Positions 487 to 2,381 of a stretch of 7,070 nucleotides of DNA are shown here, piece by piece. This DNA is from Candidatus Microgenomatus auricola (GTDB taxonomy: Bacteria > Patescibacteriota > Patescibacteriia > UBA9570 > XYC2-FULL-38-9). The notes below the pieces were generated by a model that saw only the letters and a program-made list of their open reading frames with translations, did not search any database and was not told the DNA's origin. The stretch spans positions 1-7,070 of the forward strand of contig SBBP01000165.1 of the NCBI GenBank assembly GCA_005239655.1, in the 5' to 3' direction. Position 1 is the first letter of the stretch; every line of letters begins with the position of its first letter. The translations under genes were made by a program, and so were the position numbers.

Positions 487-2247
487 CTACAATTGAAGCG
501 ACTTGTCTTTGATCAACTGTTGTGCGTTTTTGATAAACTCGTCTTTCGCAATCGGTTTTGCTTCTTTTTCGCCACGCATACGCACCATCAAGTCAGCGGA
601 CTCCATTTCCTTATCACCGATCACCAGCATGTAGGGATGTTTCATCTTTGCGGCCTTGCGAATCTTATTGCCGACCGTTTCATTCGAATCATCAATTTCA
701 ATACGCAAACCTGCATCGCGGAACTCCTGAGCCAATTTTTCACAGAACTCAACATGGCTGCTGCCAACAGAAATCAGCATCACATGCGTCGGAGATAACC
801 ACAGTGGAAACTCGCCGGCGTAACGCTCGATCAAAAACGCCATGGTGCGCTCAATTGCTCCGATTGACGAACGGTGGATGACAATCGGTTGAACGTCTTT
901 TCCGTTCGCATCCGTATACACCACCTTGAACCGGTGTGGCAAGCAGAAATCATACTGCACCGTAAACGCTGTATCTTCCTTCCCCATCACATTCTTCATT
1001 TGCACATCGATTTTCGGTCCGTAGAAGGCCGCTTCTTTTTCTGCTTCGAAAAACGGTACCCGCAATTCCTTCAACACTTCACGTAAAACCTGTTCGCCAC
1101 GATCCCACAACGCATCGTCTTTAAAGTACTTCTCGTCATCAGTGCGATCGCCGAGCGACAAACGATAGCGATAATCCTCACCAGCCTTCATACCAAAAAT
1201 ATTCGTGAAGTATTCAATCAAATCAATCACGCGCTTGATTTCCTCCTTTGCCTTGTCAGGCTCGACAAAGATATGCGCATCTGCCAGCGAGAAGCTACGC
1301 ACACGGAGCAAACCCGTTAACTCGCCAGATTTTTCATACCGATACAACTGGGCAATTTCGGCATATCGTAAGGGCAATTCACGGTAACTCCGCAGACGGC
1401 TTTGGAACAGCTGAAAATGATGTGGGCAGGTCATGGGACGCATAATCATTTCATCCTCATCAACCTGCATCGTTGGATACATGGTGTCCTTGTAGTACGG
1501 AAAGTGCCCTGAGGTGCGATATAAGTCCACTCGCGCAATATCTGGCGTATAGACGTGTTTGTACCCACGCTTGATTTCCTCATCAACCACTGCGCGCTCT
1601 AACTCACGCCGTATCGTTGAACCACGTTCCGTGAAGAGCGGCAAACCCTTGCCCACCAAATCAGAAAACACAAACAAATCCAAATCCTTGCCCAGTTTAC
1701 GATGATCACGTAGGCGCGCCTGTTCCAAGCGATCTAAATGCGCGTGCAATCCATCCTTGGAGGGGAAGCACGTCCCATAAATACGCGTCAACATTTTGTT
1801 CTTCTCGTCACCGCGCCAGTAGGCTCCCGCAACAGAAAGGAGTTTGAAATGCCGCAATTCTTTTTTGGGATCCTCTGCATGCCCACCTTTACACAAATCC
1901 AAAAAGTTGCCCGGATCGTTTTCAGTAATCATTTTGCCTGACTGGGCAAACTCTTCAATCAGTTCCAACTTATAAGGGTTATCTGCAAAATCTTTCCTCG
2001 CTTGTTCGACAGACACTTCTCGTGCCACAAATTCGCTCCACGTTTTCAAAATCTCACGCATTTTTTCTTCTATCTGCGCAAAATCTTTTTCGGACAGTGT
2101 AACATCGCCCATATCAAAATCCTGATAAAAACCGTTCTCGATCGATGGACCGATGGCGTTCTTTGCGTTCGGCCAAATCTGTTTCACTGCCGCAGCCAGC
2201 AAATGCGCACACGAATGGCGCAGGTGTTCCAATTGTTCTTCGTTCAT
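487..2247 (-). CDS. thrS: Threonyl-tRNA synthetase lacking the N-terminal TGS domain
   Basis: Class II synthetase of 586 residues that charges tRNA-Thr in the cytoplasm. The N2 editing domain (about 1-170) begins almost at the first residue and keeps its four characteristic residues: H11 and H15 (HSCAH), C119 and H123 (CKGGH). This domain hydrolyses Ser-tRNA-Thr in the family. The catalytic core (about 185-485) has the zinc ligands C274 (PMTCPHHF), H325 (ADAHIF) and H458 (VIHRSSIGAIER). Motif 2 lies around 294-318 and motif 3 around 457-490. The C-terminal anticodon-binding domain (about 487-586) includes GLRIEIDDSNETVGNKIR and YMLVIGDKE. E. coli ThrRS is about 640 residues; the difference is the roughly 60-residue TGS domain, absent here. 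I chose the ATG at 2247-2245. A 25-codon in-frame extension to a TTG at 2322 is possible on paper, but those bases form the T-box antiterminator and terminator hairpins, so the extension is not protein. The ATG sits 6 bases after the terminator U-tract, with only GAGAG as a poor, too-close ribosome site. Stop is TAG. Confidence 0.96.
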   Translation of the reverse strand: MNEEQLEHLRHSCAHLLAAAVKQIWPNAKNAIGPSIENGFYQDFDMGDVTLSEKDFAQIEEKMREILKTWSEFVAREVSVEQARKDFADNPYKLELIEEFAQSGKMITENDPGNFLDLCKGGHAEDPKKELRHFKLLSVAGAYWRGDEKNKMLTRIYGTCFPSKDGLHAHLDRLEQARLRDHRKLGKDLDLFVFSDLVGKGLPLFTERGSTIRRELERAVVDEEIKRGYKHVYTPDIARVDLYRTSGHFPYYKDTMYPTMQVDEDEMIMRPMTCPHHFQLFQSRLRSYRELPLRYAEIAQLYRYEKSGELTGLLRVRSFSLADAHIFVEPDKAKEEIKRVIDLIEYFTNIFGMKAGEDYRYRLSLGDRTDDEKYFKDDALWDRGEQVLREVLKELRVPFFEAEKEAAFYGPKIDVQMKNVMGKEDTAFTVQYDFCLPHRFKVVYTDANGKDVQPIVIHRSSIGAIERTMAFLIERYAGEFPLWLSPTHVMLISVGSSHVEFCEKLAQEFRDAGLRIEIDDSNETVGNKIRKAAKMKHPYMLVIGDKEMESADLMVRMRGEKEAKPIAKDEFIKNAQQLIKDKSLQL

Positions 2248-2253
2248 ACTCTC

Positions 2254-2282
2254 AAAAAAATAAAAACCCCATTCTCTTGGGG
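2254..2282 (-). terminator. Intrinsic terminator of the thrS leader (T-box-controlled)
   Basis: On the minus strand CCCCA (2282-2278) pairs with TGGGG (2271-2267) around a six-base loop. A thirteen-base U-tract interrupted by one A follows (2266-2254). The stem can be lengthened by G-U pairs between the preceding GGG and the first Us. Its 5' arm is the same sequence that closes the antiterminator helix (CCCAA, 2281-2277), so the two structures are mutually exclusive. Because the U-tract ends 6 bases before the thrS ATG, this is a switch in front of thrS and not the end of the upstream gene's message. Confidence 0.85.
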
Positions 2283-2325
2283 CCCTTCCGGGCGGTTCCA
2301 CCCAATTTCCTTTATGATGCAAAGG
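2277..2325 (-). promoter_or_regulatory. T-box riboswitch expression platform (stem III-like hairpin plus antiterminator) for thrS
   Basis: The minus strand carries the conserved T-box core GGGTGGAACCGC. It folds exactly like a T-box antiterminator. Lower helix: TTGGG (2305-2301) with CCCAA (2281-2277). Bulge: TGGAACC (2300-2294). Upper helix: GCCC (2293-2290) with GGGC (2285-2282), capped by a GGAA loop. In known T-boxes the first four bulge bases pair with the NCCA end of uncharged tRNA; here UGGA would select a tRNA ending in UCCA. Three bases upstream is a stem III-like hairpin, CCTTT (2325-2321) with AAAGG (2313-2309) around a seven-base loop. The position directly before thrS implies sensing of uncharged tRNA-Thr: low charging favours the antiterminator and thrS transcription. 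A normal Stem I with a Thr specifier codon is not evident between the upstream stop codon and this element, so the complete sensing domain is unproven. Confidence 0.85.
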
Positions 2326-2352
2326 CGCACCACAAAAGCACTCTTGAAAAGA

Positions 2353-2381
2353 AGTGTACTCCCTTCACTGTGCAATGTCAA
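2353..2381 (-). promoter_or_regulatory. Predicted sigma70-type promoter for thrS
   Basis: A perfect -35 box TTGACA (2381-2376) is followed by a 17-base spacer and TACACT (2358-2353), which matches four of six -10 consensus bases. The -35 box begins one base after the stop codon of the upstream gene. Transcription would start near 2345, giving a leader of about 98 bases before the thrS ATG. The -10 box is weak. If this is the main promoter, the T-box transcript has only about 20 bases upstream of the stem III-like hairpin. Confidence 0.5.

Follow-up and report, generated by a model that had tools for sequence, protein, structure and literature searches.

The DNA analyzed here is a stretch of 7,070 nucleotides (nt) from Candidatus Microgenomatus auricola (contig SBBP01000165.1), hereafter the window, taken from a genome of 0.93 Mb that is estimated to be 82% complete. 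Its minus strand carries, in this order, dnaE, a second protein gene, a leader, the threonine--tRNA ligase gene thrS, and a partial gene with a match to UPF0004. The leader extends from the stop codon of the upstream gene (2383) to the ATG of thrS (2247), and it is the subject of this report. A preliminary description had proposed a T-box switch directly before thrS in a probable bacterium of the candidate phyla radiation, and our results support this proposal; among 38 thrS relatives in named genomes, 37 had candidate-phyla labels and one was labelled only 'bacterium'. The interval given for the switch, 2254..2325, proved correct for the antiterminator and terminator, but a Stem III and a specifier hairpin further upstream were missed, as was the occurrence of the same compact design in many relatives, and the thrS-leader T-box as we delimit it lies at about 2373-2254 on the minus strand. 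Read from the sequence were two mutually exclusive hairpins, a UGGA bulge, a threonine codon in a 7-nt apical loop, a Stem III signature, and tRNA-Thr genes that fit them, and the leader is very probably a compact T-box, predicted to pass transcription into thrS when uncharged tRNA-Thr is bound.

Parts of the leader and their fit to tRNA-Thr

The features of the leader and its neighborhood are collected in Table 1. The core pairing described previously (TTGGG/CCCAA, bulge TGGAACC and GCCC-GGAA-GGGC) was confirmed, with a 5-base pair (bp) helix A1 (UUGGG/CCCAA) and a 4-bp helix A2 (GCCC/GGGC, loop GGAA) on either side of the 7-nt bulge, and so was a mutually exclusive terminator ending 6 bases before the thrS start codon. 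The leader has the features by which members of the T-box family are known: a 7-nt UGGNACC bulge between two helices, a mutually exclusive terminator (2282-2254), a match between UGGN and the tRNA discriminator base, and an RRRNG-Stem III-AA arrangement (GAGUG, a 12-bp hairpin and AA), of which the RRRNG motif is described, along with a T-box database, in the available portion of PMC7778990. An ACA specifier before thrS is present by sequence, in a hairpin that the covariance models described below left unaligned. A Stem III consisting of CCUUU/AAAGG alone was provisionally set aside because the 12-bp hairpin with its RRRNG flank was the better fit, although this longer hairpin and the GCAC/GUGC closing helix compete. 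Only 1 nt separates Stem I from the Stem III flank, and there is no Stem II.

Table 1. Coordinates of the thrS leader, its parts and adjacent genes in the window
Feature	Position	Strand	Sequence or basis
dnaE	6926-3543	(-)
383-amino acid (aa) protein	3534-2386	(-)
Possible outer closing helix	2373-2370 with 2341-2338	(-)	GCAC/GUGC; in minimum-energy fold
Specifier hairpin (Stem I)	2345..2367	(-)	UGAAGGGA-GUACACU-UCUUUUCA; 8 bp possible, 7-nt loop GU-ACA-CU
Specifier codon (Thr)	2355..2357	(-)	ACA, loop positions 3-5; sequence; genome has tRNA-Thr(UGU); pairing predicted
Stem III with flanks	GAGUG 2343-2339; Stem III 2338-2309; AA 2308-2307	(-)	CUUUUGUGGUGC-GCCUUU-GCAUCAUAAAGG; fits 5'-RRRNG-Stem III-AA-3'
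Antiterminator	2305-2277	(-)	UUGGG-UGGAACC-GCCC-GGAA-GGGC-CCCAA; sequence, fold
T-box bulge	2294..2300	(-)	UGGAACC; UGGA (2300-2297) can pair with UCCA of tRNA-Thr
Intrinsic terminator hairpin	2282-2267	(-)	CCCCA-AGAGAA-UGGGG; takes up 3' strand of A1 and A2
U-tract	2266-2254	(-)	UUUUUAUUUUUUU; directly after terminator hairpin, ends 6 nt before thrS ATG
Purine stretch	2253-2249	(-)	GAGAG; outside terminator hairpin
thrS, threonine--tRNA ligase, 586 aa	2247-490, feature interval 487..2247, ATG at 2247	(-)	NCBIfam TIGR00418, 628 bits, above cut-off

Relative to dinucleotide shuffles the leader folded with a z of -2.70, and 4 of 200 shuffles folded equally well. Its minimum-energy fold was the terminator form at -44.5 kcal/mol, and the best fold with the antiterminator enforced reached -37.4, which places the terminator form ~7 kcal/mol ahead in the fold model, as expected if OFF is the default. 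In the minimum-energy fold an extra G-U pair could shrink the loop of Stem I to 5 nt. The possible outer closing helix occupies the place of a helix that covaries in relatives, but in the window the GAGUG flank of Stem III is in competition with it. When the region 2306-2400 was shuffled in the same way, 0.46% of the shuffles formed an 8-bp hairpin whose loop had ACN at positions 3-5.

Analysis with ARAGORN of 30 loci of the window's genome identified tRNA-Thr genes with anticodons UGU, CGU and GGU, and all three have the discriminator U that pairing with UGGA had been predicted to call for, with CCA not encoded. By a simple acceptor-stem rule, U was the discriminator of 6 of the 31 distinct tRNAs of this genome (3 Thr, 2 Gly and 1 Cys), a count that leaves out 3 of its 34 tRNA places and in which the C scored for tRNA-Ile(GAU) may be a misreading. 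Since a discriminator U to match UGGA was found in these tRNAs only, the ligand would be a tRNA for Thr, Gly or Cys, and the ACA codon points to Thr. The codon frame of the window's loop was set by the relatives and by G002, a genome of the same family, whose leader (L103) has the loop AGACAAA and thus ACA again. Readings of the loop as UAC, GUA or ACU were ruled out, as the relatives place the codon at positions 3-5 of the 7-nt loop.

The mechanism that we propose follows from what is known of T-boxes (PMC7778990 and PMC10482949, each cited here from a portion of its text). In the emerging RNA the specifier loop would contact tRNA-Thr by pairing with its UGU anticodon. If that tRNA were uncharged, pairing of its free UCCA end with UGGA would keep the antiterminator in place, and RNA polymerase would read into thrS; a charged tRNA could not do this, the terminator would form and thrS expression would be low. 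We infer tRNA binding and switching by the thrS leader from the parts listed in Table 1.

A compact design shared by thrS leaders

The Rfam T-box model RF00230 is of limited use for these leaders. A cmscan of the window against Rfam at E ≤ 10 reported no T-box, and its sub-threshold matches (an L31 leader inside thrS, and Ms_IGR-7) were taken as chance. The RF00230 search that had been suggested as a check gave a match to the element in the window's genome (25 bits, E 5.4e-4), which was well below the gathering score of 93 and was lost under stricter filters, and at the loose setting of E ≤ 10 matches were also obtained in 10 of 14 control genomes. Since RF00230 models the long T-box form, the low score weakens only the claim of typical membership. 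Across 95 related genomes, 39 had a match at E ≤ 1, five of them above the gathering score, but 6 of the 14 control genomes matched at this threshold as well, so that lone weak RF00230 matches prove little. Read by eye, the matches before thrS seemed to have in common a small hairpin whose 7-nt loop contains ACC.

Two covariance models were built from such leaders, R1 from a 4-sequence alignment and R2 from 12 leaders (12 matches) with the window left out. Two other alignments were rejected, a MAFFT alignment of 15 leaders, which misplaced Stem I in both the window and L103, and a 10-sequence alignment, in which the 3' strand came out split. R2 scored the window at 30.7 bits (E 2.3e-6 on the window, E 3.0e-4 genome-wide; E-values of such models are rough). 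Its wider searches covered genomes of the class and phylum. In the class, 201 of 380 genomes matched at E ≤ 0.01. In the phylum, 36 of 379 matched at E ≤ 1e-4, a threshold that the window's own genome does not reach, and 24 of the 36 are listed as lying outside the class. Of the best matches in the class, 90 were inspected, and a recognizable core was present in 88, with thrS downstream in 77 of these; of the other 11, one was at a contig end without a long frame and the rest had other genes first.

As a sample that avoids selection on the hairpin, thrS was located by its protein in 102 of 105 class genomes and the upstream DNA was read. Antiterminator geometry was found upstream of thrS in 43 of the 102 (window included), versus 4 of 102 on the reverse strand, and the bulge of all 43 was TGGA. 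R2 added 4 of the other 59. Conservation of the bulge and covariation of the helices in relatives had been set as a test of the original proposal, and both were found: TGGAACC is kept and the helices covary. These counts also bear on the idea that the hairpins are chance structures within a coding extension of ThrRS, for which one could cite that the reading frame of thrS stays open upstream as far as a TTG at 2322 and that the Rfam scan of the window came back without a T-box. It is already contradicted by the conserved core before thrS and, further, by the genome-wide match of a model built without the window and by the protein starts of the relatives, where the same ...RHS motif follows their terminators as it does in the window. 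We regard a coding extension as extremely improbable.

The specifier hairpin was examined in both sets of leaders. Among 76 model-found thrS leaders, 57 had ACC at positions 3-5 of a 7-nt loop on at least 5 bp (shuffles: mean 2.0, maximum 7), and 16 had no ACC hairpin even at 4 bp. Other loop sizes and frames gave no peak except for 9-nt loops, which arise from these hairpins when the closing pair is opened. The protein-selected sample is a fairer test than leaders found with R2, and here 26 of the 43 antiterminators were accompanied by a 7-nt loop with AC at positions 3-4 (24 ACC and 2 ACA; shuffles: mean 1.9, maximum 6). By eye, the loop is also present in 6 of the remaining 17 (L217, L218, L227, L276, L292 and L312), where its closing pair is mismatched or its stem is rich in A/U; others, e.g., L208 and L258, resemble a longer Stem I and look intermediate, although they were left unclassified. 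The thrS T-boxes L208, L210, L226 and L258 seemingly have, also by eye, a longer Stem I and no 7-nt loop hairpin. Two forms of Stem I may coexist before thrS in the class.

The model-found and protein-selected sets together comprise 119 leaders, 101 of them unique. The loop motif YYACCAA, chosen regardless of its flanks, occurs at 72 sites in 71 of the 101, and flanking positions 1 to 6 pair in 65, 69, 69, 69, 66 and 70 of these sites, with pairing down to background at positions 7 and 8 (27 and 23 of 72). In total the flanks form 408 pairs, against at most 240 when partners were permuted between leaders, and sliding the partner strand by 1-3 positions lowered Stem I pairing from 94% to 27-48%. 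Each position of Stem I is occupied by five or six standard pair types among the leaders. On the 5' side of Stem I, GAUUG is present in 71 of 87 leaders. A CUAA lies downstream of Stem I, and the bases that follow it pair with those that precede GAUUG. In the 77 leaders that had CUAA, out of 82 with the 5' motif, this closing helix had 4 or more of its 5 pairs in 64 (permuted mean 21.9, maximum 31) and all 5 in 50 (permuted mean 5.8, maximum 11). An RRRNG-hairpin-[AG]A arrangement precedes the antiterminator in 77 of the 101 leaders, the window included, versus 3 or fewer in each of 30 shuffled sets. In many relatives a hairpin of ~28 nt also separates Stem I from the Stem III flank. Outside the class, the thrS leaders L231, L234 and L235 have the same 7-nt loop hairpin. 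The pooled leaders of the relatives are best described as one conserved compact design, outside classes I-IV of PMC10482949 as that paper's available text defines them, with a 6-bp Stem I, a 7-nt YYACCAA loop, a closing helix, Stem III and usually a terminator. The loop CUACCAA is laid out like a tRNA anticodon loop, with a pyrimidine at position 2, the codon at 3-5 and then AA, which makes a loop-loop contact with the tRNA plausible.

The mode of control could in principle be translational, with the ribosome binding site of thrS hidden by a hairpin. According to the available portions of PMC7583486 and PMC10482949, most forms with a short Stem I act on translation, and the terminator ends only 6 nt from the ATG. 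However, the window's hairpin is followed by a U-tract, the purine stretch GAGAG is not inside the hairpin, and a terminator-like hairpin with a U-run overlapping the antiterminator was found in 86 of 100 leaders with enough sequence, compared with at most 5 in shuffled tails (the window, too short for this count, was scored apart and was positive). The 14 leaders without a terminator by this rule may include some that differ. For the window's leader, translational control is very unlikely.

The window's copy and other genes behind T-boxes

Several observations weigh against the assignment of the window's leader to this design, or against the generality of the design itself. In the window's loop the codon is ACA, not ACC, and is followed by C rather than A; neither GAUUG nor CUAA is present; and the inner six pairs of Stem I include two G-U pairs. 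R2 aligned only the Stem III/antiterminator part and did not place the window's specifier hairpin, and R1 matched at 2277-2315 only, without Stem I. A 6-bp ACN hairpin is not rare by chance, since hairpins of at least 6 bp arose in 3.0% of the shuffles. In a core-pattern scan of the window's order, only 2 of 10 genomes (the window's and G002) had the element before thrS, and 55 of the 102 thrS genes of the class sample had no T-box by the geometry rule or R2. Among the 26 hairpins of the protein-selected sample, L214 and L216 have 4-bp stems and look doubtful. Finally, R2 itself encodes the hairpin, and it was the source of most of the 101 leaders, which partly include the set from which R2 was built.

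These departures could mean that the window holds a decayed T-box whose specifier arm has stopped reading tRNA, so that what remains is a fixed attenuator or a terminator for the upstream operon. Such decay would account for a Stem I off the shared design that neither model aligned, for a leader that begins right after the stop codon at 2383, and for the missing element in most genomes of the order. We consider it unlikely given that the threonine codon is at the expected site of a 7-nt loop, the bulge is compatible with the discriminator of tRNA-Thr, the Stem III signature is kept, and G002 has ACA as well. Our preferred reading of the window's leader as a T-box that responds to tRNA-Thr describes this copy as a divergent, minimal and atypical form of the compact design. 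Its 6-bp Stem I and UGGA are 46 nt apart, the smallest distance among the 87 scored leaders, and L099, from a named Magasanikbacteria genome outside the scored set, is shorter still by its printed sequence.

Compact leaders before other synthetase genes have loop codons that match the gene concerned: AUC in the loop CUAUCAA before ileS (L254), GUC before valS (L011 and L017), GGC before glyS (L018, L242, L245 and L248) and GAC before aspS (L012). Two other aspS leaders, L010 and L014 (about 1465-1655), have the Asn codon AAC, as would suit an AspRS that serves tRNA-Asn as well and is under the control of that tRNA. The gene names come from the best NCBIfam match for nine of the ten and, for L245, from Pfam domains and likeness to the other glyS genes; the hairpins, with loops of 6-8 nt, were picked by eye from listings that held other hairpins too, without a statistical control.

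Other genes were also seen behind T-boxes. The first frame after a Thr-type T-box is NUDIX-like in L119 and L156 and acetyltransferase-like in L137, L142, L146 and L190 (by Pfam for L119 and L190, by resemblance for the others), and in G091, G062, G051 and G112 thrS lies further downstream of such frames. A D-Tyr-tRNA deacylase gene (Pfam PF02580; L192:1124-1588, minus strand) follows an R2-matched T-box. Long RF00230 T-box matches were present in L005, L006 and L013 (from 1501), those in L005 and L006 above the cut-off, and the genes that follow them resemble argininosuccinate synthase genes.

With regard to the flanking proteins, a Pfam search of the 383-aa protein between dnaE and the T-box gave no match, and gene ends resembling the end of this protein occur upstream of thrS in some relatives of the order. 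Alignment of the thrS product to solved bacterial ThrRS begins only at their residues 64-72, and the N-terminal TGS domain appears to be absent. The thrS matches of G088, G078, G091, G068 and G102 contain one in-frame stop each, possibly a sequencing error or a match overrunning the gene.

Comparison with known T-box classes

Beyond the single locus, we think it somewhat probable that a fifth architectural class of T-box exists in Patescibacteria, namely a transcriptional sensor with a 6-bp Stem I, a 7-nt anticodon-like loop and an outer helix via GAUUG/CUAA, which would read the tRNA loop-to-loop without an elbow-binding arm and of which the window, lacking Stem II, would be one of the smallest forms. 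In the open-licence literature we found no paper on T-box riboswitches in Patescibacteria, the candidate phyla radiation, Parcubacteria, Saccharibacteria or Microgenomates, and an earlier mention elsewhere is possible. Patescibacteria are described in the accessible part of PMC11665869 as being without basic amino acid synthesis pathways. A compact T-box would give them a widespread sensor of charging at a synthetase gene, passed over by the Rfam cut-off. As summarized in the portion of PMC7583486 available, a long Stem I gripping the tRNA elbow is generally required in transcriptional T-boxes, ultrashort forms are mostly translational, and the Stem II region measures about 10 to 200 nt. Ultrashort Stem I forms with intrinsic terminators in many small-genome bacteria would make the long-Stem-I rule testable with small RNAs.

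Four T-box classes are named in PMC10482949, and none of them, in the portion of that paper on which this comparison draws, combines a 7-nt apical loop with transcription control. Class I (Bacillus subtilis tyrS) resembles the window in its terminator/antiterminator before a synthetase gene, UGGN bulge and Stem III, and class II (Bacillus subtilis glyQS) in being transcriptional and without a Stem II domain. However, both have a long Stem I with a distal elbow-binding motif and an internal-loop specifier, and class II is glycine-specific, whereas in the window a single 23-nt hairpin (2367-2345) with a Thr codon makes up Stem I. Class IV (Actinomyces odontolyticus ileS) likewise has no elbow-binding motif, but its Stem I is intermediate and its specifier is in a side bulge, in contrast to the apical loop of a single hairpin in the window. 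Class III (Nocardia farcinica ileS) shares with the window a short Stem I without an elbow-binding motif, an apical-loop specifier and a UGGN core. It differs in its apical loop of 5 or 6 nt, as the covarying pairs of the relatives close 7 nt (a distinction that is weaker for the window itself), and in that it requires Stem II and is mostly translational, whereas the window has a 1-nt gap and an intrinsic terminator. The relatives also have a closing helix around Stem I, a feature that the available class III text of PMC10482949 does not mention.
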